Positions 6,001 to 27,822 of a DNA stretch of 32,056 nucleotides are shown in pieces. Numbering within the stretch: position 1 is the first letter of the stretch; each line of letters starts with the position of its first letter. Below the pieces are notes generated by a model. It did not search any database, was not told where the DNA came from, and saw nothing but the letters and a program-made list of their open reading frames with translations. The stretch is taken from positions 1 to 32,056 of IMG/VR virus record IMGVR_UViG_3300044986_000207. One strand, written 5' to 3'. The DNA is from a virus. Position numbers and translations under genes: made by a program.

Positions 6001-9000
6001 GTGACTTCTGCTGCTGCCCTTTGCTCAAGCTCGGTGACGCCTGCTGCAACTTCTGCCTCAGTTTCGGGGATCGCGCCAGCTTCGACAGGAGGGCGAACCT
6101 CCCTAACGATTGAGGACTTGTATCTTTGGTAGTTGGGGTTGCTTTCATAAGTTGAAATATCCTGATCTAAAAGAAGGAATGGCTCGGACAACTCCGCCTT
6201 CTGGTCTTCGGATATCGGCATAGCATCGATGATCCGAAGCGCACTGTCAACCAAACGGTTGGCTTGAGCTACTTGTTCGGGATTGACCTGACGGTAAAAT
6301 TCGGGAGTCTCGGAAACCTTGCGAGCCCGCTTGCCGTCTTGGGAAACCTTGGATTCTCCTGTGTCAAAGAGATTGGCAAAGAAATTGAGGGTCGGTGAAC
6401 GCTCAATCTCAACCAAGGCTTGCGGGAACTGGACGCTATCCTCTGTGGTATCGGCCTCTTCGGTTGTTACTATTGGGGCTTGCTCGACAATCGTAGTGGT
6501 CTCAACCCGCTCTTCTTCAGGGCGGATGCGGCGTTGGCCCCTCCGCGCCCATTGAATACCTTCAACCTGATCAAGGGTTTGGTTGGGGTTAACAGCAACA
6601 GTGTATTTCTCTTGGGTGCCAAAAGGCCGAAACACAACCTCGCCGTCTTCCTCGTTCAGCGCACCGCGCATTCCTTCATAGATAAAGGTGTCTTTATCCT
6701 GAATAGAATCAGCAATGGTTCTAACCGCTGGAAGAACGCGGGCCTCCTCTTCTTCGCCGCCACCAGCACCTTCGACGGGAACTTCGCCTCGGCTGACATA
6801 GTCATCCACTAGTCCGCGCAATGAAGCAATGGCTTCTTGTGGATTGGACTCAACCACTTGAATAAACCGCTCATAGTTCTCTGGAGCCATGAAGGTCTTG
6901 AACCTTGTCTTATCAATCTCGCTAACTTTAAATTCGTTTTTATTGATGAGGTTTTCCAAGTAGGTGACATCATCTTTGAGTCCGCGAACCGTGACGGGGT
7001 TGAGTCCTTCGGCGGGACGAACCACCTCATCCACCGCAATGTTTGTAACGTCCTGAAGGATCTGAGAAACGTCATTAGCCTGAATGCGCTCCAAGGCTTG
7101 GTTAACCGTTTGGTTTCTCTGGGTAATAAAGTCTTCTGGGAGTCTCACCATTCCATCGGCAAGGCTCTCGGTGATCTTGGTTTCTACATCGGTCTTTGCC
7201 GCTTCCACCGCCTGCTTCATAGCATCGGCAGATTCGGGCGTAAGACCAGATGCGTTGTTAGCCGCTTCTTCTGCTGCCGCAATAGCTGCTTGTTCGGCGC
7301 GGAGTTGTTCCGCTCTGGCTGTATCGGCCTTATCAAGGTCTTGCAATCTGCGCTCTGTTACCGCTTCACGCCGCGCCCTGACGGTGTCAACAGCAAACTT
7401 GGCCCCACCCAATGGCAGCAATCCAAGAGCCATGGCCTTCATGTCATCCGCTCCCATGGTGGATTGGGCTTGGTGGGCGCTCACCGCATTACGCATGTAA
7501 GCTTCCTTCCACTCCTCGGTAAACTTCTCTTGTCCAACCTCAACACCAATGTTGACTGCCCCATCAATCGTCCTGCCAATCATGCTCTTTCTTGCCGCCT
7601 TGGGCATCTTCAGGAACATGGTGGGCTCAATTAGCTCGGTGACGCTCGGAAGCTGCGAGGCGTAGAATGCATCTGTAGACTCCTTGTAGAGTTGCTTCTT
7701 CTGGTCTTCAGAAAGATCATTAATGTTCTGGACGTTAGCAGCCTCCAGAAAATCTTGAACGGTAGTTTGAAACCAATCCAATCCATAGATATTGGCGTTG
7801 GCTACAGCACTTGCCGCACCAGAAACCCAAGGTGCCGCCTGTTGTCCAAGCTGGTTGATCGTCGGGCTTTTGAGTAGGGCGGCGACAGCCAAGGACAGAC
7901 CGCGAACGCCAAGCTCTCCTGCTTTTTGGGATGTAATCTGGGCTCCAACTTGACCAATAACCTGTCCAGCCATGGCGGCTGTCGGATCTCGGAAGGGATC
8001 GGCGTTCTGCTGTTGTTTGTCTATTGTTTTCTGGATTAGCTCAAAGGCAAGTTCTCTGGACTGATCTTCATCCCCAGAGTCAAGTGTATCGCGAAGCCGC
8101 TGACCATCCACAGCCATGTCAATATACCCACCAAACCCTTCGCTTGCGCCCGAAAAGTAATCCATGACCGAAGATGTAAATCCCGTTCGGCTTGATTCGT
8201 ACTCTTCTAAAACTTCGTCATCGGTCTTGCCCTCGGCGCGTTGGGCGTAATCGGGAAGCTCGCGGACAAACTTCAGTTTATCTTCGCGCTCCGCCGCTGC
8301 TGTGGCGTCAAGAGCTTCAATAGAGGCAGTGCGTTGAATCTCGTTGATCTCGCCCTCGGAAAACAGATCATCAACCAATTCCTTGGCACGGTCATAGTCT
8401 CCCTGCACATCCTTGGAGAACACGGGGCGACCTTGGACAATGGCAACTTCCTTCTCGCCCTTTTGAACGGAGATCCATTCTTCCGCGTCTCGGCGGATCT
8501 GCTCTTGCTGGTCTGCGGGAAATCCCGAAACCAACTTGCTAATAGCCTCCTCTGTCTCTGCCCTGTTTTTATTCTGGGCGTCCTTAACTCCCTGCCACGC
8601 CTCTTCTGCCACCTTCAATCCTTCGGGACGGTCTGGCATGTCAAACGGAATGTCGCCATATCCCTCGGCTACCGCCGCTCCATAATCCGCCCAAGCACGC
8701 TTGTTGTTAACCTCAAGCTGTCTAGTAAGCCATGCCGTTTCTCTCGCCGCATCAAATCCCTTGGCATAGTTCTCTGCCGAAGATTTGATTAATCCATTCT
8801 CTTGGTCTGCGTATTTCTTGGCAATGGATTCAAACGTGAAATTACGCTCTTCGATATCGGAAATAGAGCGAGCTTGCTCCATCTCTGCTGCCATTTGGGA
8901 ATCAAACTGGTAAAGTTGATCAGCCACCGCATCACCAAAGGCGGGATCAAGGCGCTTGGATTCAATCTGATTTCGGCGTTCCTCGGCGCGTTGGGATTGA

Positions 9001-9371
9001 ATGCGATCTACTTCGGGGCGCAGGGTATTGAGTCGTTCTTGTTCTCCGTAGAGCCCAACCTCCGCTTCCTTGCCAGCGTTGAACGCGCTGACCATCTGTT
9101 GGACAATCTCAGGGGTGCGCTCTGGGATCTGGGCCAATTCATTGTATTTGGCGTAATTGGCCTCGCGGGACTTGGCGAGCTTTTCAGCTGCAGCGGCAGC
9201 ACTATTATAGTCTCCTATCGGATTGGGTTCTTTAAATGCTTCCCAAGGCTTGATCTCATCCTCTTCTTCGGGCTCGGAAAAATCCGACCACGGCCCGATA
9301 GCTTCTGGAGTCAGTGTTCCAGTTGCGCTATCAGCTTCATCATCTTGGAATTCCTCCCATGGATTTGCCAT
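1..9371 (-). CDS. Giant polyvalent virion protein with metallopeptidase motif (3' end outside window)
   Basis: One uninterrupted minus-strand frame starts at the ATG at 9371 (MANPWEEF) and is still open at base 1, giving at least 3,123 residues. I read it through without finding a stop, and separate landmarks fall in the same frame. The first 700 residues are polar, rich in Glu, Ala and Gln, and probably coiled coil. HEVGHTL (His1524, Glu1525, His1528) is a zinc-peptidase HExxH motif; LDEFVA with Glu1636 is the likely third ligand. About residues 1940-1978 (GYNPVRSSFF to FVKDAQ) resemble a segment I know from phage and plasmid polyvalent proteins. Residues about 2770-3050 resemble large polyvalent-protein-associated domain 38, with hydrophobic stretches and EGTDRWGALVRY near 2874. 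It starts 5 bases after the previous stop. In comparable phages such proteins sit in the capsid and are ejected with the DNA; that role is inferred here. An RNA polymerase of the N4 type was considered, but I see no polymerase motifs. Confidence 0.88.
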   Translation of the reverse strand, partial: MANPWEEFQDDEADSATGTLTPEAIGPWSDFSEPEEEDEIKPWEAFKEPNPIGDYNSAAAAAEKLAKSREANYAKYNELAQIPERTPEIVQQMVSAFNAGKEAEVGLYGEQERLNTLRPEVDRIQSQRAEERRNQIESKRLDPAFGDAVADQLYQFDSQMAAEMEQARSISDIEERNFTFESIAKKYADQENGLIKSSAENYAKGFDAARETAWLTRQLEVNNKRAWADYGAAVAEGYGDIPFDMPDRPEGLKVAEEAWQGVKDAQNKNRAETEEAISKLVSGFPADQQEQIRRDAEEWISVQKGEKEVAIVQGRPVFSKDVQGDYDRAKELVDDLFSEGEINEIQRTASIEALDATAAAEREDKLKFVRELPDYAQRAEGKTDDEVLEEYESSRTGFTSSVMDYFSGASEGFGGYIDMAVDGQRLRDTLDSGDEDQSRELAFELIQKTIDKQQQNADPFRDPTAAMAGQVIGQVGAQITSQKAGELGVRGLSLAVAALLKSPTINQLGQQAAPWVSGAASAVANANIYGLDWFQTTVQDFLEAANVQNINDLSEDQKKQLYKESTDAFYASQLPSVTELIEPTMFLKMPKAARKSMIGRTIDGAVNIGVEVGQEKFTEEWKEAYMRNAVSAHQAQSTMGADDMKAMALGLLPLGGAKFAVDTVRARREAVTERRLQDLDKADTARAEQLRAEQAAIAAAEEAANNASGLTPESADAMKQAVEAAKTDVETKITESLADGMVRLPEDFITQRNQTVNQALERIQANDVSQILQDVTNIAVDEVVRPAEGLNPVTVRGLKDDVTYLENLINKNEFKVSEIDKTRFKTFMAPENYERFIQVVESNPQEAIASLRGLVDDYVSRGEVPVEGAGGGEEEEARVLPAVRTIADSIQDKDTFIYEGMRGALNEEDGEVVFRPFGTQEKYTVAVNPNQTLDQVEGIQWARRGQRRIRPEEERVETTTIVEQAPIVTTEEADTTEDSVQFPQALVEIERSPTLNFFANLFDTGESKVSQDGKRARKVSETPEFYRQVNPEQVAQANRLVDSALRIIDAMPISEDQKAELSEPFLLLDQDISTYESNPNYQRYKSSIVREVRPPVEAGAIPETEAEVAAGVTELEQRAAAEVTRLEQEAQARRVAAGQAAFVAAKPVDLIGRVARNEATPQEFESLVEQGFSEEYKGQQVLTQAGIDALPQDQRPRLTPEARKIQIDTGASEAAAEAITKGLRIGVDQVPPNVRMPEGWTLVGDVYVPPEAQAMAGRIARDEEAIKEISTQYGVDNQLATAIFNNKIIKLPSSGFWAGPQNWAVEQYGGNFYAVPPAIFKKRLAAQGELRRLSILERAALAGILTEQRLLTETDAKQYIQDASNQGFSSDEIDAATATAESKWNERFGSGGNARKVAGEVSPPVVDHTAEEAQRATKPRVTGGSALPSADMFGMTAREALQFLADKNLGASDLEATGRSLNLSQIMQRAASVLAKLPLRMLDADFIKRERGGARAYRANEGFIRVPAMVGGQPHIVMPETLVHEVGHTLTSDAIRKYVEDRAVRGAKGAVYLRAMDKALADPNTPEQIKRLVSLYKQTIDEMGLTQEYFGAGGLADMDATRSQKSGWRRKNPLINKFTGKKIGWDELYGLSNLDEFVAMTWSSPAFQDLLKNIKVQNQPSIYERFVRIIRDLFGFDSDTMAAAVVDASYALAELEAPATRGTVEQRIAATTAARGAAPETKGIAPLAPMPEPTAIVDEYAPRTDEEQKAFNKASTNKILRRNPQLAVAAVRMKNGEITAGDYADLVDAVDPFVPKGADPIPTDEKIKQYMAKTGGGIAKLDKVGLIDENGNPRLETGSEYEFRIDIPTYNESTKAGDTVYAITAHLPVADDAKTIGSVAAFAGIAKVTDPRFMTREMREGGALNIAMGAGKFRLATVKGKYEPITELPIDINDPDSWTEVGYNPVRSSFFVDTRTGQAVVGGSEAIMVGSRVFVKDAQMEARPTGVTFGAVFAPEPEPDTNEDATSEEVAQTVTNRAEAKKAQELVTGYSILPDEVPAELREEAQANYQNGMTLGDFLNPQFFNLGEAYNPYIAATWLELNGGLMPTVKVEGKEIAKPEKGTSESEALRLLKRASDILDSRSETTGGKELTYSLQDIMATWMESGLGPAALKNAIVQFTNLDVAQAEKTANDFANVYQLAQNVTNAKERAQVRMERALPAVTNRQQREKERMIKLEEAAGTIDSIAEAIRVAFDVNIAKPKTDRATEKKQIEEQLRQAKRIIREVVPRQYLGDQLLTLERATGLEGLKKVVEAAQNGLNEARLDDATARARKAYDRAQKAVKANEISPEAMAVLRDFVETYSKKGIGPEARAKIEDAMKRYEADPVGALEDLAVQKYLKQKGALQTIKIDKSLGLDALREIAAMVNSTLHADKVARGEMLFNKQQTRMELVDEISSEIDQVRSIAKARKDGGMGIGLFNRIALYKGARVENILRAFGLNKLREFVYDRLTLDAYNDELRVRRDLKKKIEARVKEITGLEIGTRDYDLWSKEMIELTGVDGSGVSKPIKIQRREFLDMVASLRDESNFRRAVNSGGYVIDRLDTAAIDTVKITPDTYFEILNKMGDQDTQMVDMMVDLYNNDLFTILENASLQAYGHGIKGVTGTYYPRTADKWTRTTETKKDMDYITYYQRRVDDVGYLKERDERAKSKLRAVDFLQRLDYHVTNDARIGAYLPIVRDIEMVLNDPKIARPLAQKIGEDGLKMIREMVRQQTTPPAGLPMGLLSTLVGNAGVGVLGFKLHAAMQNPVGIPIALAYYGKDGFKYLAKAFPYGLKAMNPKDRRDMAAVLSKYSPYYNERYGDGGFIQEFTSGLSNAPSDTKWRKNLETAAMSWLEGTDRWGALVRYKIAQQVVRDRTALQDGTEEFNQAVANEWNRMMFRSENTAHGADRTGVFQFAGQNPVFKVFIMFQSAVSKQYSLFAEAMLQAQQGGRQNLQDAATKLVFLSISLAASKAISQAFYSLLFPPEDEEEKEKTWAQLLGKVAGTPLSIVPVVGPTLQNFTESFFSPDQMRKPMQIDLISSFIFGIGDTLALTRKAIDQLTDEQIDEATGNAKFWETSYRALKKALAVGGIPTGVPAAGVVQT

Positions 9372-10468: not shown

Positions 10469-11164
10469 TTAATACATCCAAGAACGGCGGGGCTGTATTT
10501 CTACTGGACCCGTGGCTTGTGCTGGTTGCGGACCTCCAAACCTAGATGACGGAAACATTGGCAACCCTCCAAAAGTTGAGGCTTCTGTTGCTGGCTTAAA
10601 AGAAGATTCCGCGCCAGCAAACGGAAATCGCGGAACTCCAACAGTAGCTTCTATTCCAGTCATTCCTCGACCAACTGTGGTTTGAAATTCGCTGGCTCTT
10701 TGTTCTCTTGCCATTTGGCCAAATCCAGTAAAATCAAGTGGATTACCACTTGTGCCAAGTTCTGTTTTGCTAAATTGTGTAGATCTTTCTAAATTTCTAT
10801 CTTGAGTTATTTTTTTTGAAGTAGAAGGCAAAGCCGATGGTTCTTCTTTACTAGGTTCGGTATATGAAAATGTTCCAAAAGGCTGTGGGCGAGGAGCAAA
10901 AAAAATTGAACGCTGAGTAATTGGATCAAAACCAGTTTGTTTAATTTTATTAATATCAGTGTTTGCTGGAAGACCCATGGAAACCGCGCTTTCCATTCTG
11001 GCTTTACCTTCGCGCCCAGCTTGCGTGTAGGCCAAAGATGATTTTAATTCTCTGAGCCTAGAAGCCTCCATTTCGCCCAAGCCACCTATACGTTCGGATG
11101 GAGTAGGTGCGCCACGAAAAGAATAAATCAAATTGGGATCTGTTCCAAATCCAGTGTAGTTCAT
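10469..11164 (-). CDS. Hypothetical virion-associated protein (231 aa)
   Basis: A 231-residue protein of low complexity, rich in Gly, Pro, Ser, Thr and Phe. It begins MNYTGFGTDPNLIYSFRGAP and repeats a short TGFG motif (LDFTGFGQ near the middle). The C-terminal third has Pro-Phe-Gly patterns (FPFAGAESS, GGLPMFPSSRFGG) and ends SWMY. There is no membrane segment, catalytic motif or Cys cluster. It starts 4 bases after the preceding stop and ends 3 bases before the next start, inside a row of probable virion genes. The disordered composition suits a minor virion component or an assembly factor, but no family is recognised. The upstream sequence is A/T-rich with no Shine-Dalgarno. Confidence 0.75.
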   Translation of the reverse strand: MNYTGFGTDPNLIYSFRGAPTPSERIGGLGEMEASRLRELKSSLAYTQAGREGKARMESAVSMGLPANTDINKIKQTGFDPITQRSIFFAPRPQPFGTFSYTEPSKEEPSALPSTSKKITQDRNLERSTQFSKTELGTSGNPLDFTGFGQMAREQRASEFQTTVGRGMTGIEATVGVPRFPFAGAESSFKPATEASTFGGLPMFPSSRFGGPQPAQATGPVEIQPRRSWMY

Positions 11165-12206: not shown

Positions 12207-12884
12207 CTAAATTACTCTGGGATAATATGGAAAAACTGGAAGATTTCCATAAGCTCTCTGTTGATAAATTGGTTGCCAATTTGTTCCCCGCTCTGACAAT
12301 GGACTTCCCATCATGGATTGCCGCATATTCCAATCAAGATCTCTGGAATTATATGCATAATCAATAGGATAATAATTGGGCTGGTAGCCCTCTTTAGTGG
12401 AATAACCAGAAAATGGCCCCGATCTTAAGGGTCTTGGAGACATATAACCTGTTTCAATATCGAATGAATATTTTGGCTGCATCTCATCTTGAACCCTTTC
12501 GTAAAATTCAATATTTCTTGGGGTAAGTTTCTCTGAAACCGTTGGTATAGGCAGTTGCGGAACTTCTGGTAAAGCAGGAACTGGCCTCATTTCTGGCATG
12601 GCGGGAGGCTCTTTAGCCCAGAAAGACTCAATGGGCTGGCCATATCTGTTAGTTGGCGTGGCATCGTATCCGCCTGCGGCCCGTCTTTCTCTCGCCCCTG
12701 TCTGATCTTTGTATGTTTGTTTTTGTTCCCGATACCGATTCATGGTTCGGGCATTCTCCCTTACAGCGGCAATCCGCTCTTTCTGAATTCGGTCTTGTTC
12801 TTCCCTAGCTTTAAAGGCTTCGGCCTGTTCGGGGGTAGCGGAGATAGTTCCGTATTTTGTTTTAATCTTTACTTTTTCGGCCAT
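12207..12884 (-). CDS. Hypothetical protein, Tyr/Pro/Arg-rich (225 aa)
   Basis: A 225-residue protein. The first 75 residues are charged and helical (MAEKVKIKTKYGTI, then repeated EERIAAVRENAR-type sequence). The rest is rich in Pro, Tyr, Met and Arg with little predicted secondary structure (MPEMRPVPALPEVPQLPIP, YSTKEGYQPNYYPIDYAY) and ends FPYYPRVI. No enzyme motif or membrane segment is seen. It lies 8 bases after the glycosyltransferase-like gene and 57 bases before the next probable start. The aromatic, Pro-rich tail resembles small structural or linker proteins of phage particles, but no family is recognised. Confidence 0.75.
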   Translation of the reverse strand: MAEKVKIKTKYGTISATPEQAEAFKAREEQDRIQKERIAAVRENARTMNRYREQKQTYKDQTGARERRAAGGYDATPTNRYGQPIESFWAKEPPAMPEMRPVPALPEVPQLPIPTVSEKLTPRNIEFYERVQDEMQPKYSFDIETGYMSPRPLRSGPFSGYSTKEGYQPNYYPIDYAYNSRDLDWNMRQSMMGSPLSERGTNWQPIYQQRAYGNLPVFPYYPRVI

Positions 12885-14454: not shown

Positions 14455-15192
14455 TTAGTTGATTGTGGTTAAAATCTTAGCACCCTTTTGCATGTTTTCA
14501 ACTGGGTAAAGTGGTTGAAGATTTGTCCAATGGCAAGCGGCTTTTTGCTGTTCTGGATCGGTTAAATCAAATGAAGAAAGCGGACGGATATGATCGATGT
14601 GGAAGCTGTTTGGTTTATCCCAAGACATACCATTTTTAAATTTAGATTCCAAATGTTGCTTCAAAAAATCAAATGTGCATCCAAGTAGTTCTTGTGTTTT
14701 TTTAACCTTTTTCCATCCGCGCCGTCCAATAGCATAATAAAGCCTGCATCTAAGTCTACTTGCAATGGCATATTGTGGGTCAGTGGCTATTCTTTTTCTT
14801 TTGTGATCATTGATCCACTTTTTATTATTCCCGCGCCATGCACTTACCCTTTTGCGCTCTCGTTCTTTAACTTCTGGTCTTTTTTGATACTCAGCGTTTC
14901 TTTTCTTAATTTTCTCATAATTGTTTTTGACGTATTCTTTTTGTCTTGCCAAAACTTTTTCTTTGTTTTTCTGATAATTTGCAGCACCAGATTTTTTTTG
15001 TCTTTGTTTGTTCTTTGGATCTTTCCAATATTCAGCCGACCATTGTTTGTTTATTTCAAAGGCTTCTGGTGTCATCCATTGAGCATACTCGTAGATCTTT
15101 CCGCTTTTTCTAAGGATTTTTCTTTTACCGTAAAAGATTTTCCCGTCCGACTCGCGAACATCGCCCTTTTTATATTTCCGAGTTTTCTCCAT
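14455..15192 (-). CDS. HNH endonuclease, probably free-standing homing type (245 aa)
   Basis: A 245-residue, very basic protein. Residues about 45-130 carry several Lys/Arg-rich helical repeats of the Y-x-K-N-K-E-K type, likely DNA-binding. The C-terminal part has the HNH nuclease signature: FHIDHIRPLSSFDLTDPEQ, then HWTNLQPL, then NMQKG, giving the expected His-Asp-His, Asn and Asn positions. Such enzymes cut double-stranded DNA. In phages, stand-alone copies are often homing endonucleases that spread into relatives, and some act in packaging. The ATG lies 23 bases inside the end of the upstream PD-(D/E)XK nuclease, an overlap that could mark an insertion or simple coupling. The region is more A/T-rich than its structural neighbours, which agrees with recent acquisition. 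Confidence 0.87.
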   Translation of the reverse strand: MEKTRKYKKGDVRESDGKIFYGKRKILRKSGKIYEYAQWMTPEAFEINKQWSAEYWKDPKNKQRQKKSGAANYQKNKEKVLARQKEYVKNNYEKIKKRNAEYQKRPEVKERERKRVSAWRGNNKKWINDHKRKRIATDPQYAIASRLRCRLYYAIGRRGWKKVKKTQELLGCTFDFLKQHLESKFKNGMSWDKPNSFHIDHIRPLSSFDLTDPEQQKAACHWTNLQPLYPVENMQKGAKILTTIN

Positions 15193-16231: not shown

Positions 16232-16470
16232 TATGCTGCTTTTTCTAGTTGTTGGTTGTTGTTTGCTTGCGGCGTTTTGACGCCCAAGAGTTTACAGATG
16301 TAGCGGATGTGGAAGCACTCTTTGCGGAATTGATAGCCTGAACAAGTGCAGGTAACTGGGTCTTCGGTGAGGTCAACGAGGTAGTAGTCTTCTCGGTTGG
16401 TGCGTGACTGGACAAGAAATGTGAGCGGATCATGCGGCAGAATTTCAATGCCCTTTCCATAGCTAGTCAT
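16231..16470 (-). CDS. SWIM-type zinc-finger protein (79 aa)
   Basis: A 79-residue protein with CTCSGYQFRKECFHIRYICK: Cys41-x-Cys43, then Cys52-x-His54, the CxCx(n)CxH pattern of SWIM zinc fingers. SWIM domains bind DNA or proteins and occur in transposases, helicases and RecA-associated factors. The protein is essentially just this domain, preceded by beta-rich sequence (YYLVDLTEDPVTC). I chose the ATG at 16470 because it overlaps the upstream stop by 8 bases and has AGAGG just before it; a longer in-frame start at 16518 lies deep in the upstream gene. It sits between the 215-residue gene and the nuclease, in a likely replication or recombination operon. Confidence 0.83.
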   Translation of the reverse strand: MTSYGKGIEILPHDPLTFLVQSRTNREDYYLVDLTEDPVTCTCSGYQFRKECFHIRYICKLLGVKTPQANNNQQLEKAA

Positions 16471-17110
16471 TAGCCTCTTCTGGTTGCGGGGTTTTGAGGG
16501 ACTCGGCCTTGCTTGCACCCCAGCCTAGCTCTTCAGTGCTGTATGCGCTGATGGGCATGCCAGAAATGTATCCCTGCCTGTCGGCCTGAATGAAAAGGGT
16601 GGTTGCTATGCCTTGGCGGTGGGCATCGGGCAAATCAAGCTCAATAGCAATGTCGTTAGCCTTCTTGACGCACAAGCGCATGAGGTTTGCCGCCTGACAC
16701 AGAAACACCTTGGCCCTGCGGTCTACTGGGTCTAAAGCGGGCTGTTCTTTTCGGGGTTCTGGAGCAACCTCGCGCACAGGCTGGGCTTCCCTCTTGGGCA
16801 GCTTCGCAGCCTCTTCAGGAGGAACCTTTCCCACCTCTTGAATAATTACTGTATCGGTATCCCTTCGATCATCTCCACAAGTTTTAAGGTGGATCTCTTT
16901 TCCAATAAACGGAATAAAAGCATCAGCTATGGACTTCTTTTTTGTCCAATAATTACGCCTAACTCCGTTTGCTTCAAGTTCAATGACGCACAGTGTGTTA
17001 TTTTTAACCCACTTTGGTGGTGCGGCAACCTTGACGTTGCGCCCCTCTCTGAGGTTGGAGTGCTGGATTGCTGGATGGTTTTCGTATTGGATTGGTTTTT
17101 GGAATGACAT
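16463..17110 (-). CDS. Hypothetical protein, first gene of leftward operon (215 aa)
   Basis: A 215-residue protein starting MSFQKPIQYENHPAIQHSNL (ATG at 17110). A longer start at 17140 (10 more residues) overlaps the candidate promoter -10 box, so I prefer 17110. The first 100 residues look beta-rich (TLCVIELEANGVRRNYWTKK; HLKTCGDDRRDTDTVIIQEV), like a small DNA- or ligand-binding fold. Residues about 105-135 are a Pro/Glu/Lys/Ala linker, and the C-terminal 80 residues are helical (ANLMRLCVKKANDIAIELDL). It resembles the layout of phage accessory replication proteins, perhaps single-strand binding, but no diagnostic motif is seen. Next downstream are the SWIM protein and the nuclease. Confidence 0.8.
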   Translation of the reverse strand: MSFQKPIQYENHPAIQHSNLREGRNVKVAAPPKWVKNNTLCVIELEANGVRRNYWTKKKSIADAFIPFIGKEIHLKTCGDDRRDTDTVIIQEVGKVPPEEAAKLPKREAQPVREVAPEPRKEQPALDPVDRRAKVFLCQAANLMRLCVKKANDIAIELDLPDAHRQGIATTLFIQADRQGYISGMPISAYSTEELGWGASKAESLKTPQPEEAND

Positions 17111-17124
17111 AATGGTTTTGGTAT

Positions 17125-17153
17125 TCTCTATCTCCGACACTCGTCCTTGTCAA
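17125..17153 (-). promoter_or_regulatory. Candidate sigma70-type promoter for leftward operon
   Basis: On the minus strand TTGACA (17148-17153) is followed after exactly 17 bases by TAGAGA (17125-17130). The -35 box is a perfect consensus; the -10 box matches at three of six positions. Transcription would start about 17118, leaving roughly an 8-base leader before the ATG at 17110. No factor site is proven. Confidence 0.45.
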
Positions 17154-17180
17154 ACGTTCAAATTATTTTTGAAGGAAGGT

Positions 17181-17216
17181 GTCGGGGGCGGGAAAAACCA
17201 CTAACCCACCCCCGAC
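17181..17216. repeat. GC-rich inverted repeat in divergent intergenic region
   Basis: Arms GTCGGGGGCGGG (17181-17192) and CCCACCCCCGAC (17205-17216) pair over 12 positions with a single mismatch, around a 12-base A-rich loop. It is the strongest hairpin I saw in the window. No T-tract follows it on either strand, so a simple intrinsic terminator is not supported. It lies between divergent genes, upstream of both candidate promoters, which suits an operator, an insulating structure or a replication-related site. Confidence 0.65.
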
Positions 17217-17239
17217 GATGCTTACTCACACATGAAAAC

Positions 17240-17257
17240 GAGGGAGAACATGCCCTC
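17240..17257. repeat. Short inverted repeat in rightward leader region
   Basis: GAGGG (17240-17244) and CCCTC (17253-17257) can pair around an 8-base loop. It lies between the larger hairpin and the candidate rightward promoter. With only five pairs it is weak evidence, but together with the larger hairpin it suggests a structured control region. The whole 17141-17342 interval has no convincing gene. Confidence 0.35.
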
Positions 17258-17287
17258 AGACCCCGAACCTACCATATTCGTTCAATC

Positions 17288-17316
17288 TTGCAAGGGGAAA
17301 ATGACCTTGCTAGGAT
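17288..17316 (+). promoter_or_regulatory. Candidate promoter for plus-strand appendage operon
   Basis: TTGCAA (17288-17293) and TAGGAT (17311-17316) are separated by exactly 17 bases; each matches the sigma70 consensus at four of six positions. The start site would be near 17323, about 20 bases before the ATG at 17343. It is the best candidate in front of the plus-strand genes, but the boxes are imperfect. Confidence 0.35.
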
Positions 17317-17342
17317 CGGGCTTTTAGAGTAGGTTCTCCGAA

Positions 17343-19769
17343 ATGGCAGAGCAACCACCCCTCTCTAGAATTCATGTCGTTGGCTATTCGGCTAATGACC
17401 GCGATTTTCCGATCCTTAATCTGGTTTTAGATCCCCGTGTGGCAGGGTATCAGGTTCCCAAGGATCTCTCGGCCTGCCCCGATAAACGCTACCCCAACCA
17501 TGTATTTACGGGGGCTCAACCCATCTCTGGTGACCAACGGGTTCGCCATGTCTGGGAGATCCTCCCTTCTCCTTATGTGCCGTTTACCCGCTATGATGAT
17601 GACCTTGGCCCAGTTCAGGGGCGTAGGCGGTCTGTTAAAAATGAGGGACAAGTCGCAATTCGTCAGGCCGACAAGCAGGTAACTTACGATGCTCGCGAGG
17701 GGTCGGCCATTGTCTACACCGAACTGGAGGAGACTTGGTCGATCAAGACTGACGATGATGGGAATTCTCTTTTTCCGATTCGGGATCGAGATTTTTATGA
17801 TGCTTCTCGCGGGCCCGTCCAAGAACGCCGCCAACTATTCGTCCCCACGGGAGAAGAGGAGGGAAGCCTTGAGAACGTCAATGGCGTCATTACCCAGACA
17901 AGCTACGAGCCCTACAACGATTTTCTTTCGGTCAAAATTGTCCAGACCTACAGCGTTGATGGACCTCAATTAATTGGCAATGCCACCAACAATGAGGGAC
18001 AGCTTGTTACCGTTACTACTCAACGCAAGGCATCGGACAATTATGAAGCTCCGCAACCCACAGCCACTCGCACTGTTGAAGCATCGCGTGAAGATTCCGA
18101 AACAATAGTCGAAAGGATTGTTGATACCCCAGAAGTTTTTGGCGGGGAAACATATCGTAAAACCAGAGAAGATCTTACGCCACAAAAATTTAAAGCGGCT
18201 CAAGAAGACGCCACATTTGAACAAACCATTGAAGGAACGGCGCAAACTCCGACCCTTGATTCTGGAGAATTTGTTAAGAGCGAACAACAAGTAAATAAAT
18301 TCCTAAAAAGAATCTCAACCACATCAAGAAACATCCAGTCTTCTTCGGTTTTAAGTGAAGCGGTGCTGAATCAGGATGGGCAAATTGGAACCCGCACCCT
18401 TACTCTAGCCTCTGGAAGCCAATCCTTTGCCCCGTCTTCCACCCTCGTTGATGCTAGTGTTGAGGCTTTGGGTGATGGCAGAACAATCAAAACAGAAATA
18501 GTTATTCCAGAGGTATTTGATAATAAAACATTTTCCATTGAACGTCCAGATCCCGTCCCCCCAAAATTCCGAGTTCTCATTCCAACAGAAACCGAAGAAG
18601 AGACATTGGAGGGAACCGCATCATTACCTTTACTTTCAACTGGTCAAGTTTCCAAAAGCGAACAACAGGTTACAAAATTTGTAAAAAGAACAAGAACTTC
18701 TGAAAGAAGCGACATTTCTGAAGAAAAAACAATTGTTAGCCATGAATTCACATCAGATCTTGGCGGGGGAATTGCAACAGTTAATGAAATATATCCATAC
18801 AGTGGATCAACACCATTAGCAACCCTTGGAACTATTTCTGATACTGTGGAAGATGTTGGAGATGGAACAAAAATAAGAAGACAGGTTGTTTTACCAGAAT
18901 CTGAAAATTCCAAGTTGGCCACACTCAAGGGCCAAGAATACGATGATCAACTTGATATTGTAATTCCTTTTAATCAAACAGTTGCAAGTCCAAATTCAGC
19001 AGCCGTTCAGGGAGAAAGAAAAAGAGTAACCCCAAGAGATGTGGCACATAGCGTTGTCGTTGAATACAACGAAGATGATGTAAAAAATGCTTTAGAAGAA
19101 TATTACTGGGAAGTTCCAGACATGATTGAAATATCTTTGCCAGACAAATTAAAATCTGCATCTATTATTGTTGATGTCGCTGGAGGAAGCGGGAGCGGAA
19201 CAGGAAGTGGAGATACATATAGTTGGTCTTATTCGGCCTCTGGATCAATTAAGGGCGGATTATTTTATGATATTGAAGAAGGATTTAAAGGAAATGTCCC
19301 GACAACCAGAGCAATTTTCTTTTTAAAGAAAAACAACTCTTCTCCAAATGATGTTTTAGCAAGGGTTCAATCCGAAAGAAATAATCCAAATTTAAAATTC
19401 TGGCCAAATGCTAGACCAGAAGCCCATGAAATTGTTATTATGGGAAAATCACAATCGGTGGACAGGTCAGAATCAAAATCTCACAACTCTTCTTCTGTTT
19501 CTTCTTCATCAAGCGGAAGCATTACCACCGATCAATTAAATATTCCGCCAACCATCCATGAAAGAATAGAATTATACATTGATACAGAATATGATTTTGA
19601 TGATATTGAAACAAGTATACTTGTTCGTCCTAATTTTTTGCCACCAACTCAACCATATTCCGTATTCCCAACTGGAGAGTTTATTTTAAGAATAAATGCA
19701 ACACCATACAGACTTGGATATACAAGAATAGACGCTTTGATAGTTGATATAAAGCCAGAATATGTCTAA
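17343..19769 (+). CDS. Large repeat-containing structural/adhesin-like protein (808 aa)
   Basis: An 808-residue protein rich in Thr, Ser, Val and Glu, predicted mostly beta. After a less repetitive 240-residue N-terminal part, about 128-residue modules recur: TVEASREDSETI (about 245), SVEALGDGRTIK (about 372) and TVEDVGDGTKIR (about 501). Within the first two, VKSEQQVNKFLKR (about 311) and SKSEQQVTKFVKR (about 437) are clear copies. A Gly/Ser linker near 613-623 leads to a different C-terminal domain with a Ser-rich stretch at about 704-733. No signal peptide or membrane segment is seen. The modular beta architecture suggests a phage appendage or adhesin, but no named fibre family is recognised. 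It heads a plus-strand operon, overlapping the next gene by 8 bases. Its GC content drops sharply after about 18 kb. Confidence 0.82.
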   Translation: MAEQPPLSRIHVVGYSANDRDFPILNLVLDPRVAGYQVPKDLSACPDKRYPNHVFTGAQPISGDQRVRHVWEILPSPYVPFTRYDDDLGPVQGRRRSVKNEGQVAIRQADKQVTYDAREGSAIVYTELEETWSIKTDDDGNSLFPIRDRDFYDASRGPVQERRQLFVPTGEEEGSLENVNGVITQTSYEPYNDFLSVKIVQTYSVDGPQLIGNATNNEGQLVTVTTQRKASDNYEAPQPTATRTVEASREDSETIVERIVDTPEVFGGETYRKTREDLTPQKFKAAQEDATFEQTIEGTAQTPTLDSGEFVKSEQQVNKFLKRISTTSRNIQSSSVLSEAVLNQDGQIGTRTLTLASGSQSFAPSSTLVDASVEALGDGRTIKTEIVIPEVFDNKTFSIERPDPVPPKFRVLIPTETEEETLEGTASLPLLSTGQVSKSEQQVTKFVKRTRTSERSDISEEKTIVSHEFTSDLGGGIATVNEIYPYSGSTPLATLGTISDTVEDVGDGTKIRRQVVLPESENSKLATLKGQEYDDQLDIVIPFNQTVASPNSAAVQGERKRVTPRDVAHSVVVEYNEDDVKNALEEYYWEVPDMIEISLPDKLKSASIIVDVAGGSGSGTGSGDTYSWSYSASGSIKGGLFYDIEEGFKGNVPTTRAIFFLKKNNSSPNDVLARVQSERNNPNLKFWPNARPEAHEIVIMGKSQSVDRSESKSHNSSSVSSSSSGSITTDQLNIPPTIHERIELYIDTEYDFDDIETSILVRPNFLPPTQPYSVFPTGEFILRINATPYRLGYTRIDALIVDIKPEYV
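18076..18900 (+). repeat. Diverged tandem protein-coding repeats within the 808-residue gene
   Basis: Two full modules and a partial third, each about 380 bases long, begin near 18076, 18459 and 18846. The clearest DNA match is AGCGAACAACA, found at 18280 and 18658, exactly 378 bases apart. The modules share layout and key residues but have diverged, so this is old duplication rather than a recent slip. Confidence 0.7.
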
Positions 19770-20055
19770 CAAAGCAAATGCAGGTTGGTCTCCATATACA
19801 ATTCCAGCCACTCCAACAATAAACAATAATGATGTATATGCATTATCTTGTTCCAATGGGGCGGATTCTTCAAATAATCCAAGCCAATATTTGGAATGGA
19901 AAAAGACAATACCAAACGGAGAAAGGGTTGGTGATCTTTTAAGGTGGGATGGGAGTGCCTGGGTATTATTGCCAGCTATTTCAAGCGGAAGCCTTCATGT
20001 ATTGACCATTAAAAATAATGTATTGGCTTGGACCCCGACAGAAGACTGCGAATAA
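19762..20055 (+). CDS. Small appendage-operon protein (97 aa)
   Basis: A 97-residue protein, MSNKANAGWSPYTIPATPTI onward, rich in Asn, Ser, Trp and Pro. Short beta-like stretches include DVYALSCSNG, LLRWDGSAWVLLPA and LHVLTIKNNVLAWTP. GDLLRWDGSAWV resembles short beta-hairpin repeats of phage tail and head-decoration proteins. It overlaps the 808-residue gene by 8 bases and shares one base with the next start (TAATG), so the three genes are translationally coupled. It may be an assembly partner or an appendage subunit. No named family is recognised. Confidence 0.75.
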   Translation: MSNKANAGWSPYTIPATPTINNNDVYALSCSNGADSSNNPSQYLEWKKTIPNGERVGDLLRWDGSAWVLLPAISSGSLHVLTIKNNVLAWTPTEDCE

Positions 20056-20735
20056 TGGCTACTATTAAAAAAACAACAGAAGGCGGAATAGAGCGTATTA
20101 TTACAAAATCTTCTGGTGTAATTCAGAAAATAAGCTGCTCTTGTTGTGAGGAGGTGTGCTGTATGTATTCTGCACAGAAATACATAGAAGGAGTTTATCT
20201 TAGAGAAGATCTTCCAGAAACATTAACAATATATGGCCAAGCAGATGCTCCATATACTATAAATTTTGAATTAAATTTGTTTGGTCAAGATATTTATACT
20301 GGTGATGGTAATACAAAAATACAAATAATTAATGAATCTTGGGAAATTTTGGGCGAAGATGGAAATCCCGCTCAAGACAGAAGTCCAAGTGATTGTCTTG
20401 TTTATGAACCATTTTTTGAAGGCGGAGCTTATAATGGAGACAATTACGAAGATACTTATTTGGTTGAAGTAAAAACAACTCCATTGCCAAGCCCAACAAT
20501 AGAAACTTTTGAAATTACAAGAACTTCACTTTGCACATGGGAGGGATTTGGTTTTGGATATGATTTTACTCTTAAATATTATGACACAATAGAACTTGTA
20601 AATGAACGCCATACTATGTGGGGATTTGAATATAGCGCAGGAAATGCATTTAGAGATCCACTTGATGCGCCATTTAATTCTCCAGTTGGAACATATGCAG
20701 AAGCAAGCTTTGCATATATCGTAAAAGAAATTTAA
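20055..20735 (+). CDS. Hypothetical protein with N-terminal cysteine cluster (226 aa)
   Basis: A 226-residue protein (MATIKKTTEGGIERIITKSS). I chose the ATG at 20055 because it shares a base with the preceding stop. Residues 28-37, CSCCEEVCCM, contain five cysteines, then the rest is acidic and aromatic and looks beta-rich (TLTIYGQADAPYTINFELNL, then YDFTLKYYDTIELV). The Cys cluster could bind a metal or form disulfides; which one cannot be told. No signal peptide is seen. It belongs to the rightward operon and is very A/T-rich, unlike minus-strand neighbours. Function unknown, perhaps an appendage component. Confidence 0.75.
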   Translation: MATIKKTTEGGIERIITKSSGVIQKISCSCCEEVCCMYSAQKYIEGVYLREDLPETLTIYGQADAPYTINFELNLFGQDIYTGDGNTKIQIINESWEILGEDGNPAQDRSPSDCLVYEPFFEGGAYNGDNYEDTYLVEVKTTPLPSPTIETFEITRTSLCTWEGFGFGYDFTLKYYDTIELVNERHTMWGFEYSAGNAFRDPLDAPFNSPVGTYAEASFAYIVKEI

Positions 20736-20956
20736 TGAATTGCAAATATCAGTCAAGGACCAAGGATCATGGACAATTTAATTGTGCTTTGGGATGGTAT
20801 GGTGGCCGTCCATGGCTTGGTAATTGTCTTGATTGCATAAAACGAGGAGACAACACGTTAGAAGCAAGGTCGGCATTTGATAGAAGGGCTGAAAAATCCC
20901 ACCCATCCAATCGTCAACGCATTAGCGGATGCTGTGATCGGGCCGACCAATCCTAA
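20735..20956 (+). CDS. Small cysteine-motif protein (73 aa)
   Basis: A 73-residue protein (MNCKYQSRTKDHGQFNCALG, then WYGGRPWLGNCLDCIKRGDN). Cys3, Cys17, Cys31 and Cys34 form a C-x13-C-x13-C-x2-C pattern, possibly a zinc site. The Cys-(Ala/Ser)-Leu-Gly-x-Tyr-Gly-Gly-x-Pro core recurs in small proteins of phages and bacteria, in my recollection. The ATG shares one base with the preceding stop. Its stop codon overlaps the opposite-strand stop of the next gene, so this operon ends against the convergent one. Function unknown. Confidence 0.72.
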   Translation: MNCKYQSRTKDHGQFNCALGWYGGRPWLGNCLDCIKRGDNTLEARSAFDRRAEKSHPSNRQRISGCCDRADQS

Positions 20957-21246
20957 ATCTTCGGCCTGACAAAATTGATTTCTCTGACTGATGCCCCACA
21001 ATTGACCCTTTTCTTTGTTAACTCCAGCTTTTGACCGCGATTGGCCAACGCATTGATGTAGTTTTCGGCGTATCCACTATCTGCTGAAGCCTGCTTGATA
21101 GTCTTCCATCCTTCGGCGTTCATCGCCTCAATAGTGGTCATTTCGTTGGTTTCCCGAAACGACTGCCAAACATCATCCCACTGGTTAACTACAATTTTAG
21201 AAGCGGGCTTTTTTGCTCTACTAGTTTTGCTATGTGTTGTTTCCAT
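20953..21246 (-). CDS. Probable small DNA-binding/regulatory protein (97 aa)
   Basis: A 97-residue protein starting METTHSKTSRAKKPASKIVV. The ATG at 21246 has AAAGG upstream; an earlier start would bury more of the preceding gene. Residues about 40-75 (MTTIEAMNAEGWKTIKQASA, then GYAENYINALANRG) look like a helix-turn-helix: the WKTIKQASADSG stretch followed by a recognition-like helix. A C-terminal basic part follows (KKRVNCGASVREINFVRPKI). It overlaps the metallophosphoesterase end by 58 bases. It could be a transcription regulator or DNA-binding accessory factor; no family is certain. Confidence 0.7.
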   Translation of the reverse strand: METTHSKTSRAKKPASKIVVNQWDDVWQSFRETNEMTTIEAMNAEGWKTIKQASADSGYAENYINALANRGQKLELTKKRVNCGASVREINFVRPKI

Positions 21247-21983
21247 GAGAATGAACCTTTGTCTACAGTAAATGTGAGGAATCCGAAGTCTACCTTGCCC
21301 ACACATCGGCGGGCTCCAAACTTGCTGCCTGCCCCCTGAAGGGCTGGGGTGGTCATGGCAATCCAGTCATGGCCTCCGCAGAAGTTATGGTAATGCACAT
21401 GACTTCTTAGCAGGACGTTGGCCTTATGCTGCTCTCCTTCTTCGGAAAGCAAGACGTTCCAAAGGCGGTCTTTGGCCACCCCTGTGTGCCTTGTGTGGGG
21501 GATACTTCCGCTTCCTGCTGGGTGGTGTTTAAGATCGAAGACGATTCCTTCGACTTCAATCCAGAGTTGGTCTGAGATGGTGGCTCCCACCCTTTCTGCG
21601 ATAACGTTCTCCCAATCCTCTCCATCTGAAGAACTTACATGATATGGTGTGCCTCTTGAGATTGCTATCTTGCAGTTCTTTGTTTTCGGGATTTGACGGA
21701 TGATCTTCACGGCCATATCCGATTGATCTTCCATATCGGGGGCCAGAAGCTCCGTAGAGCCGCTTTTCTTGCCCTTGCCGTCTACCAGATCCCCGTTGAC
21801 AAAAACGATGTCGTAAGGGCCATTACGCGCAATCTCGCGGGCATACCAAGTCCAGTGGGCTTTGTTAATCTGAGCCCAGAGAGGAATTTCTCCGTTCTCG
21901 TCTTTTTCGGGCAACCAGCCTGTTGGGGTTAATCCGACCCTGTGGCCGCAATGGAAGTCCGAGAGGACTGCTATTTTTTTCAT
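21189..21983 (-). CDS. Metallophosphoesterase (calcineurin-like, 264 aa)
   Basis: A 264-residue protein with the calcineurin-like phosphoesterase motifs in order: DFHCGH (Asp9, His11), GDLVDG (Gly64, Asp65), then a degenerate RGTPYH at about 110-115 where GNH(D/E) is usual, then KHHPAG and SHVHYH (His195, His197). These residues bind two metal ions and hydrolyse phosphodiesters or phosphomonoesters; family members include DNA repair nucleases. The substrate is unknown. The start at 21983 lies 6 bases after the preceding stop and opens the standard strand KKIAVLSDFH. The last 58 bases overlap the next gene. Possible roles are host DNA breakdown, nucleotide turnover or second-messenger removal, none of which can be chosen from sequence alone. 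Confidence 0.86.
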   Translation of the reverse strand: MKKIAVLSDFHCGHRVGLTPTGWLPEKDENGEIPLWAQINKAHWTWYAREIARNGPYDIVFVNGDLVDGKGKKSGSTELLAPDMEDQSDMAVKIIRQIPKTKNCKIAISRGTPYHVSSSDGEDWENVIAERVGATISDQLWIEVEGIVFDLKHHPAGSGSIPHTRHTGVAKDRLWNVLLSEEGEQHKANVLLRSHVHYHNFCGGHDWIAMTTPALQGAGSKFGARRCVGKVDFGFLTFTVDKGSFSWKQHIAKLVEQKSPLLKL

Positions 21984-26586: not shown

Positions 26587-27822
26587 TTACGCGAGATAGC
26601 CGTATCCAGCACCGCTAGGGCAAGCGACGAGGTCGCTGGCCAAGTTGCAGCGCAGATGGATCAAGTAGTAACCCCACTGAGGGAAGATCTGCTTGACCGC
26701 ACAGGCCATCTTAGCCCGCCAGTAACCGCTGTTCTTGTCAGGGTTGCAGTTCTTATCATACTCGTTGATCCAGCGGAAATCGCCGCGATAGTTCTGAGCA
26801 TCATAAGTCAGCTTGCCGACTTTGAGGTTCGGGTTAGGAACAAGCCATTCCATCGCCTTCGGGTGGAAGATCACCGTGGAGGTGTACTTCGCGGCCTTGT
26901 AGGCGGGGTTGATGATATACTTGTTCTGGCCGTTGACCGAAGCGCCAGCCGAAACATACGGGGCAACTTCCGTGAAGCCACCAGATCCGTTGTCGTTGAA
27001 GCGTTTCGGGAACGGGCGGCTGTGGAACACATAGCCACCATAGCTCTTCTTGGGCAACAGCGAGGAGCCGTTGGCACCGAGCAGGTCGTTGACGCGATCA
27101 CTCCAGCGGATGTCCTGACGGACATCGTCGTTGAGTTTGATCAGGTTTTCAATCGTGGCGCGTTCGGCAAACACGTTGAAGACGGGCGAACCATCATCGG
27201 TCACCGCATCACCGTCATCGCCAGCGTTGTCCTGATAAAGACGATCATAGATCTCGCGCAGAACGCCGAGGGTCAGAACGCTCGTGGGAGCAGGCAAGGC
27301 ATTGGTAAAGCCGCTGGTCGAAGTGGACTCAGAGAGGCCAGGTTCAACAGAGACTTTCGTCGAGAAGGCGAGGTAATCGTTGTCATAACGCTCAATCCAC
27401 TCCTTGTTGACGTTGTCGGCCAAGATTTTGATGTAGTTGTTGACATCATCAATCGGGAAGGCCGAGGTGCGAACGTCTTCCAAGCAGATCCAGTTCGACT
27501 CAATCGCCTGATGGCGGAGCTTGAAGGTCTTCTGGTCGAAGGCGTAGCCAACGGTTTTAACGGGGGCCAAGCAGGAGTTGGTCTCGCCGCTGACGCCAGT
27601 AACACCGACATCTTCCCAACCGCTGCCGACAGCGACAGTGCGTTGAGCGATGGTGTTGGTAACGATTGCGCCCATGTTGTCGGGGAAAGCCGACTGGGTC
27701 ACAAAACGCAGGAAGGGATCTTTATAAAGACCCAAGCGATAGGTGCCAAGGGCAATGCGTCCAGTCTCTCTCTGGAAATTGTCATTGATACTTTCGCAAG
27801 TAGTAGCAGTTTGTGCTGACAT
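26587..27822 (-). CDS. Major capsid protein (411 aa)
   Basis: A 411-residue protein (MSAQTATTCESINDNFQRET) of the usual capsid length, with mixed alpha/beta sequence, many aromatic and Asn/Asp residues, no membrane segment and few low-complexity stretches. It directly follows a coiled-coil scaffold-like gene and a portal, the standard head-gene order, and has its own strong candidate promoter. Segments such as VGSGWEDVGVTGVSG, NNYIKILADNVNKEWIERYD and AKYTSTVIFHPKAMEWLVPN fit an HK97-fold shell protein, but the fold is inferred from context; no diagnostic motif is claimed. It is expressed at high level if the usual pattern holds. A full-length open frame also exists on the opposite strand, a coding-bias artefact. 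Confidence 0.82.
   Translation of the reverse strand: MSAQTATTCESINDNFQRETGRIALGTYRLGLYKDPFLRFVTQSAFPDNMGAIVTNTIAQRTVAVGSGWEDVGVTGVSGETNSCLAPVKTVGYAFDQKTFKLRHQAIESNWICLEDVRTSAFPIDDVNNYIKILADNVNKEWIERYDNDYLAFSTKVSVEPGLSESTSTSGFTNALPAPTSVLTLGVLREIYDRLYQDNAGDDGDAVTDDGSPVFNVFAERATIENLIKLNDDVRQDIRWSDRVNDLLGANGSSLLPKKSYGGYVFHSRPFPKRFNDNGSGGFTEVAPYVSAGASVNGQNKYIINPAYKAAKYTSTVIFHPKAMEWLVPNPNLKVGKLTYDAQNYRGDFRWINEYDKNCNPDKNSGYWRAKMACAVKQIFPQWGYYLIHLRCNLASDLVACPSGAGYGYLA

Follow-up and report, generated by a model that had tools for sequence, protein, structure and literature searches.

The window, the whole 32,056-nt stretch of viral DNA analysed here (IMG/VR record IMGVR_UViG_3300044986_000207), carries a plus-strand cassette encoding a fibre-like protein of 808 residues, a putative 97-aa adapter and two Cys-rich proteins of 226 and 73 aa (Table 1). 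In agreement with a first-pass annotation of this DNA, no other plus-strand block is recognisable: every gene recognised outside the cassette lies on the minus strand, and a long plus-strand ORF (26656–27819) is antisense to a minus-strand gene with 86% conservation. The 226-aa gene probably starts at ATG 20055 rather than at TTG 20028, because its homologues begin there, and the conserved start of the left-flanking 225-aa gene is probably M10. The divergent leader, whose GCAAG..CTTGC dyad is found in 55 of 67 loci, may have a regulatory role. A candidate cassette promoter, TTGCTA-N17-TAGGTT before the start codon, is not claimed, because the regions 5' of 67 fibre genes scored about as promoter-like as shuffled sequence did (7.42 versus 7.34). 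An invertible segment was also rejected: the inverted repeats are short and imperfect, none is paired at the two ends of the block, and all relatives have one orientation. No tRNA or known RNA element was found within the window.

Table 1 Features of the cassette and its flanks
Feature	Position	Strand	Remarks
Conserved 225-aa gene, left (divergent) flank	16463..17140	-	minus strand in 62/62 loci counted
Conserved divergent leader, GC-rich hairpin and GCAAG..CTTGC dyad just 5' of fibre start	17141..17342		fold z -3.79
Fibre-like protein, conserved N-terminal domain (residues 1-232)	17343..18038	+	GC3 0.52
Fibre-like protein, tandem beta repeats of ~126 aa	18039..18950	+	repeat number variable among relatives
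Fibre-like protein, variable C-terminal part (tip)	18951..19769	+	GC3 ~0.2
97-aa putative adapter	19762..20055	+	start overlaps fibre stop; N-half tracks fibre tip, C-half distal protein
226-aa Cys-rich distal protein, SCSCCE..CCMY family, putative receptor-binding protein	20055..20735	+	start/stop overlap TAATG with adapter
73-aa Cys-rich protein, partner of 226-aa protein	20735..20956	+	start/stop overlap TAATG with 226-aa gene
Conserved 117-aa gene, convergent with cassette	20953..21306	-	3' end is the fixed right edge of swaps
Conserved metallophosphatase gene, right flank	21189..21983	-	PF00149, E 1.4e-4

The inverted arrangement is constant among relatives, the fibre gene being opposite in strand to the left flank in all 62 loci that have this flank and to the right flank in all 54 that have that one. 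Eight relatives share 72–91% identity with the window fibre over residues 1–259, and whole fibre length ranges from 577 to 2211 aa among relatives (the 331-aa L079 left out). The protein is mostly beta and repeat-containing, with a conserved N-terminus and a variable C-terminus, which matches the layout of tail fibres. Its structure model (pLDDT 75.9, pTM 0.39) is informative for local structure only. The only strong structural match to this model, A0A6J5RCY2 of an uncultured Caudovirales in BFVD (Foldseek E 1.9e-33, 19% identity over 750 columns), is itself without an assigned function. For the model of residues 586–797, the best 21 matches are all pore-forming MACPF/CDC/gasdermin chains and are weak (Z 5.0–6.7, rmsd 6–17.5 Å), a Z below 8 counting as background according to the note of the search tool. 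The model of the 226-aa protein (pLDDT 88.5) best matched small beta barrels (Z ≤6.5), with no viral structural match at E below 0.001.

For the fibre, adapter, 226-aa and 73-aa families, searches of Pfam, PHROG and NCBIfam gave nothing informative, and no cassette protein matched a named tail-fibre or adhesin family; among 28 fibre relatives, one matches an unnamed PHROG (E 0.021). A sequence search of solved structures with the fibre alignment gave no match, and neither did tblastn of the 808-, 97-, 226- and 73-aa proteins against named isolates in the phage collection. Two large conserved virion-region proteins also lack named relatives in that collection; only the exonuclease gave matches to named phages, and these were distant. 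A scan of the genome-contig collection with the fibre N-domain found no host or prophage. In 10 large contigs, no terminase was found by Pfam search, and one was recognised through PHROGs in one of the same contigs. The lack of family, structure and isolate matches counts against the interpretation preferred below, as do the position of the cassette outside the main virion gene run and a second tail-fibre-like locus, adjoining the terminase gene, in a complete relative.

Exchange of the tip and distal genes

The first-pass annotation proposed a host-range module and suggested comparing the phylogenies of the two ends of the 808-residue protein, which proved discordant rather than uniform. Across 36 loci, distances for the left flank, N-domain and right flank are intercorrelated (Mantel rho 0.25–0.49, p 0.001), whereas those for the fibre C-terminus range from −0.14 to −0.04 against the same three regions. 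The N-terminal domain shares its history with the flanking genes, and the C-terminus has its own. Replacement of whole blocks is seen between sister loci: L015 and L016 are 98.9% identical through the end of the adapter, then carry unrelated segments of 0.86 and 1.19 kb, and then are again 99.8% identical. The distal block is also replaced in the pairs L052/L055, L053/L055-57, L024/L033 and L025/L036, and in L077/L078, where the left side is 82% identical. On the right, these replacements have one fixed edge, where the 117-aa gene has its 3' end; on the left, the edge varies, either following the N-terminal domain or falling at the adapter or within it.

The small gene in which some of these edges fall covaries with both neighbours. 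Across 40 loci, the N-half of the adapter follows the fibre tip (rho 0.46) and not the distal protein (0.02), the last 45 aa follow the distal protein (rho 0.28, p 0.001; partial 0.30), and the fibre tip and distal protein show no such relation to each other (rho −0.07). By this pattern of covariation, the 97-aa protein behaves as a two-faced connector. The same pattern could reflect linkage, through breakpoints inside a small gene, instead of physical matching.

The 97-, 226- and 73-aa genes recur in unrelated contigs, mostly siphovirus-like. The 73-aa gene is carried by 33 IMG/VR contigs, 25 of which have no flanking backbone gene of the window; in 24 of these 25, the gene directly upstream is a Cys-motif relative of the 226-aa gene, the remaining contig being cut by its end at that site. 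A second type of distal protein is likewise present in contigs with no match to the window backbone (9 of 19). The new carriers came from scans with the 73-aa gene and with an alignment; neither the 226-aa protein nor one distal protein of a different type, each used as a single query, gave anything new. Further upstream of the distal genes, 19 of 22 unrelated contigs have an ORF longer than 450 aa, and four of five such ORFs tested match tape-measure families. Tail-tip genes are usually located just downstream of the tape-measure gene.

This position bears on whether the cassette products might instead act in the infected cell, as a surface or secreted factor for superinfection exclusion or a toxin-like role. 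We regard such a function as improbable. The inverted orientation, conserved leader, small Cys-rich proteins and faint resemblance of residues 586–797 to MACPF-type chains would suit it; however, the Z scores of that resemblance fall in the range that the search tool counts as background, the placement of the distal genes behind a tape-measure gene in unrelated phages points to the tail, and a conserved N-terminus followed by tandem beta repeats and a variable tip is the architecture of a fibre.

Composition of the cassette

The counts first reported for this region, 34 G/C in 60 at bases 17821–17880 and 13 in 60 at 19561–19620, were reproduced, and a shift starting near 18 kb and lasting to ~20.7 kb was borne out, with GC3 low throughout. 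In a 600-base profile, GC declines from 0.525 (17401–18000) to 0.345 (20101–20700) and is back to 0.50 by 21001–21600. By GC3 counts, the change within the 808-aa gene is largely synonymous, with successive values per 101 codons of 0.50, 0.56, 0.33, 0.33, 0.21, 0.23, 0.25 and 0.20. A single changepoint fits best at residue 232 (nt ~18,040), with a GC3 of 0.52 before it and 0.25 after it (log-likelihood gain 26.7, equalled in 0 of 60 shuffles). Downstream, GC3 is 0.31 in the 97-aa gene, 0.18 in the third gene (computed with TTG 20028 as start) and 0.36 in the 73-aa gene; most flanking genes have values of 0.47–0.69. The drop is one among several in the window, since GC3 is also low at 10469–11164 (0.26), 12207–12884 (0.36) and 14455–15192 (0.33).

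The first-pass annotation took this change as a sign of a different source, and a recent acquisition by the window phage from one AT-rich donor would be compatible with the sharp step at residue 232, with low GC3 in other mobile-looking genes such as 14455–15192 and with the presence of the distal genes in unrelated phages. The anomaly is not, however, confined to the window phage. In 68 of 68 related fibre genes, the last 250 codons have a lower GC3 than the N-domain, and in 54 of 54 loci the genes downstream of the fibre have a lower GC3 than the right flank. The loci counted are not independent events, ~14 of the 68 being near-duplicates. A change common to all relatives, which the annotation itself had named as evidence against its reading, largely refutes such an acquisition. 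In addition, the unrelated carriers have a relatively high G+C (0.53–0.64) instead of being AT-rich, and 19 of 22 show the pattern once more, GC3 of the 226-aa-type gene being below that of their other genes; the swapped alternatives in L015/L016 are AT-rich as well. We consider a single recent donor very unlikely. Across genes, conservation correlates with GC3 (Spearman rho 0.54, 0.61, 0.56 and 0.79), variable genes being low. Because the drop is shared and low GC3 marks variable genes genome-wide, composition fails as evidence for a foreign source; what stands of the proposed host-range module is its modular exchange, seen in the discordant C-terminal phylogeny, the block swaps and the sharing with unrelated phages.

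The AT-richness could also result from mutation pressure combined with weak selection on codons in genes that evolve fast, import being minor and exchange a side effect. The tracking of GC3 with conservation and its gradual fall along the fibre in several relatives agree with this account, while clean block replacements and sharing across phage families indicate frequent import. Moreover, cassette GC3 and flank GC3 were not correlated, although a correlation might be expected if one process acted in situ. We judge this account to have a chance somewhat short of even; it addresses AT-richness only and is compatible with an exchangeable cassette.

Interpretation and relation to known systems

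Taken together, we think it probable that the block serves an uncultured group of ~70-kb tailed phages as an exchangeable receptor-binding (host-range) cassette, and that being AT-rich is a lasting feature of the rapidly turned-over genes of this group rather than the trace of a single recent foreign acquisition. At the level of sequence, the comparisons establish a conserved N-terminus with a variable C-terminus, variation in repeat number, discordant phylogeny, clean replacements, adapter covariation, distal genes in unrelated phages and a shared composition. From these we infer a location in the virion, the order of the parts in the particle, receptor binding and an effect on host range. 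The cassette would be transcribed against the surrounding genes. The large protein would be anchored to the virion through its N-terminal domain, with beta-repeat units, variable in number, as the shaft; the variable C-terminal tip would carry the small two-faced adapter, and this in turn may hold the distal Cys-rich protein, the presumed point of contact with the host. Variants would arise by recombination between a fixed right edge and variable left edges.

The odd composition marks fast turnover rather than recent foreign origin, since all the swapping relatives share it; an abrupt change of composition within a gene can thus be real, group-wide and yet not date a transfer. The sister phages that differ only in the tip form a natural data set, and the candidate connector could account for unrelated tails bearing the same receptor-binding part. 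A more tentative and rather doubtful extension is a plug-and-socket system common to unrelated phages, in which the N-half of the adapter fits a phage-specific carrier (the fibre tip here, another tail protein in siphovirus-like phages), its C-end takes an interchangeable distal protein, and low GC3 marks membership of the exchange pool whatever the composition of the carrier. If true, one receptor-binding part could be mounted on quite different virions.

Host-recognition modules are already known; the variant described here is built from families that lack informative database matches. According to the available portion of PMC10579305, the distantly related Alteromonas phages A5, V22 and P24 share a host-recognition module, a syntenic receptor-binding set that, like the one in the window, moves between morphologies without other genome homology. 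That module has ten genes, including a fibre and a chaperone, and was experimentally tested. The window set, in contrast, described here from sequence, comprises the putative adapter, the Cys-rich distal protein and its 73-aa partner, and has no sequence relation to named phages that we could find. In the metaviromic islands of marine phages, host-recognition genes vary among otherwise similar phages, and the tail fibres of pelagiphages likewise have a conserved N-terminus, repeats and a variable C-terminus (PMC3909814, available portion); the term 'GC content' does not occur in that portion of the text. Whereas those islands were defined by read recruitment (PMC3909814, same portion), the window cassette is defined by assembled sister genomes with located breakpoints and, in contrast to the islands, is inverted and has a fixed right edge.

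Histories of the two halves of the fibre

In the 808-aa fibre-like protein encoded by the plus-strand cassette (17343-20956), a conserved N-domain (residues 1-232) precedes a variable C-terminal part. The comparison covered 36 related IMG/VR loci that have both flanks, after manual removal of near-duplicates. Distances of the N-domain and of the two flanks correlate with one another (Mantel rho 0.25-0.49, p 0.001 each). In contrast, those of the fibre C-terminus correlate with none of the three (rho −0.14, −0.07 and −0.04), and thus the phylogenies of the two halves differ, as the first-pass annotation anticipated. The mean amino-acid distance is 0.76 for the C-terminus versus 0.21-0.28 for the flanks and N-domain. 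By N-domain, the loci closest to the window are L015 and L016 (90%); by C-terminus, they are L033 (54%) and L002 (52%). Nearest-neighbour agreement is low for all region pairs, flanks included (6 to 11 of 36 loci), which argues that genomes of this group recombine widely and counts against a simple picture.

Replacement of the cassette was assessed in 19 pairs of loci (REPLACEMENTS) with an N-domain and right flank that are both largely alignable at ≥90%. The cassette is the same in 13 pairs and replaced in 6 (four independent groups). The right edge always falls near the 3′ end of the conserved 117-aa gene. The left edge lies at fibre residue ~266 in L024/L033 and L025/L036, and inside or at the end of the 97-aa adapter gene in L053/L056 and L015/L016, as well as in L052/L055, a pair outside the filter. 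In L077/L078, the break is at fibre residue ~300 and the left side is just 82% identical.

In 40 loci, the adapter N-half tracks the fibre tip in similarity (rho 0.46, p 0.001) but shows no such relation to the distal protein (0.02), whereas the last 45 residues track the distal protein (rho 0.28, p 0.001; partial 0.30) and show a weaker link to the tip (rho 0.16, partial 0.19). The tip and distal protein are independent (rho −0.07). This pattern fits a putative two-faced connector, and breakpoints falling within the adapter gene would account for it equally.

Composition of the cassette

The GC counts of the first-pass annotation are exact (34/60 at 17821-17880, 13/60 at 19561-19620). GC at third codon positions (GC3) falls within the 808-aa gene from ~0.5 to 0.2, residue 232 (nt ~18,040) being the best-fitting changepoint, and the low-GC stretch persists through the 97-, 226- and 73-aa genes to ~20.7-20.9 kb. 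However, the same drop is found in 68/68 fibre genes (the window and 67 IMG/VR relatives, ~14 near-duplicates among them), so composition gives no evidence that the stretch arose separately and recently in this phage. Mean GC3 is 0.469 in the N-domain versus 0.305 in the last 250 codons, the latter lower in every gene. The best single changepoint has the same direction in all 68, outperforms shuffles in 56 and has a median position of residue 308. Downstream cassette genes average 0.312, below the phosphatase gene (mean 0.545) in 54/54 loci, and no correlation is seen between the GC3 of the cassette and that of its flanks (rho −0.05 to 0.06). Genome-wide, GC3 correlates with conservation in the window (rho 0.79, 19 genes) and in three long relatives (0.54, 44 genes; 0.61, 47; 0.56, 38). 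Because of this correlation and the drop in all relatives, the anomaly is shared, positional and linked to variability. The AT-richness of variable genes may stem from an imported pool or from weak codon selection. In the three long relatives, the genes right before the giant gene are likewise AT-rich at third positions.

Coordinates of features in the window and in related loci
Feature	Location	Strand	Remarks
Giant ORF, window	3-9371	-	at least 3123 aa; runs off the left end
Gene, window	10469-11164	-	GC3 0.26; poorly conserved
Gene, window	12207-12884	-	GC3 0.36; poorly conserved
Endonuclease VII-like gene, window	14455-15192	-	phrog_1035, E 1e-6; GC3 0.33
Divergent leader, window	17141-17345		conserved and structured to an unusual degree; fold z −3.79
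Phosphatase gene, L004	10264-11844	-	in-frame insert
Last cassette gene, L011	9216-9722		nucleotidyltransferase-like in look
Last cassette gene, L005	4403-4891		homologue of that in L011
Last cassette gene, L010	3509-3934		DUF6171, Cys-rich; above cut-off
Last cassette gene, L013	4129-4542		DUF6171, Cys-rich; below cut-off

Genomic setting and predicted structures

Start-to-stop overlaps, read directly from the sequence, join the four cassette genes, which therefore form one unit; the 73-aa and 117-aa genes meet tail-to-tail. The last gene varies among loci and is cargo at the fixed right edge: L011 and L005 carry what is presumably a nucleotidyltransferase-like motif (no Pfam match for L011), and L010 and L013 a DUF6171 protein. 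The window itself is an IMG/VR record of 32,056 bases. The longest contigs of its phage group are 66-73 kb, and three of these were taken as complete circular assemblies because their ends overlap by ~70-127 bases. In all three, the cassette is oriented opposite to both flanks, with virion-type genes and the phosphatase on one side and the 225-aa and exonuclease genes on the other. The virion-type genes include a terminase (PHROG match, E 2.2e-14) and a scaffold-like gene (PF06810, E 0.0022, below the family cut-off); capsid and portal labels, which would depend on position alone, were avoided. Counterparts of the giant ORF, which has no Pfam or PHROG match, span 2728-3077 aa in long relatives. 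A dyad (GCAAG..AAAA..CTTGC) directly precedes the fibre start in 55/67 loci and is single-copy in each of three long genomes. The endonuclease VII-like gene has homologues in 20 of the loci searched; in several of these the homologue is placed differently with respect to the 225-aa and exonuclease genes, so it is probably a mobile nuclease gene. The phosphatase genes of L004 and L038 contain an in-frame insert of ~0.8 kb (526 aa versus ~264), possibly an intein.

The fibre model (pLDDT 75.9, pTM 0.39) consists almost entirely of beta structure and shows small domains in tandem. For tip residues 586-797, the best 21 structural matches are all MACPF/CDC/gasdermin pore-forming chains, at Z scores (5.0-6.7) within background and too weak to interpret. 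The 226-aa protein gives a confident model with no informative structural match; cysteines 28, 30, 31, 35, 36 and 160 are invariant in 26 sequences of its family.

Distal genes in other phages

The 73-aa gene was found in 33 contigs: 6 of the same group, 2 distant relatives and 25 without the window's flanking backbone genes, 3 of which show a partial 30-34% match to a 471-aa protein. In 24 of the 25, the gene immediately upstream encodes a relative of the 226-aa protein with the Cys motif (the other contig is cut). The adapter is matched in 11 contigs, in 10 by its C-terminal part only. Further upstream, a large ORF is present in 19/22 (tape-measure-like in 4 of 5 tested). The GC content of the contigs without the window's backbone is 0.53-0.64, and GC3 of the 226-aa-type gene is below that of other genes in 19/22 (p 0.0037). 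Another distal type (NLGLFP..WWRVK..EYWPYD) is present in 9/19 contigs without backbone matches.

Based on these comparisons, the region is best read as a putative exchangeable receptor-binding cassette. The earlier proposal of a foreign host-range module started from a real observation and reached a largely right conclusion, but its reasoning from composition was wrong. Exchangeable host-recognition cassettes are of a kind already described in PMC10579305 and PMC3909814. This one is set apart by being inverted and having a right edge that is fixed, by the covariation of its adapter, by group-wide AT-richness and by a Cys-rich distal pair that also occurs in siphovirus-like phages.
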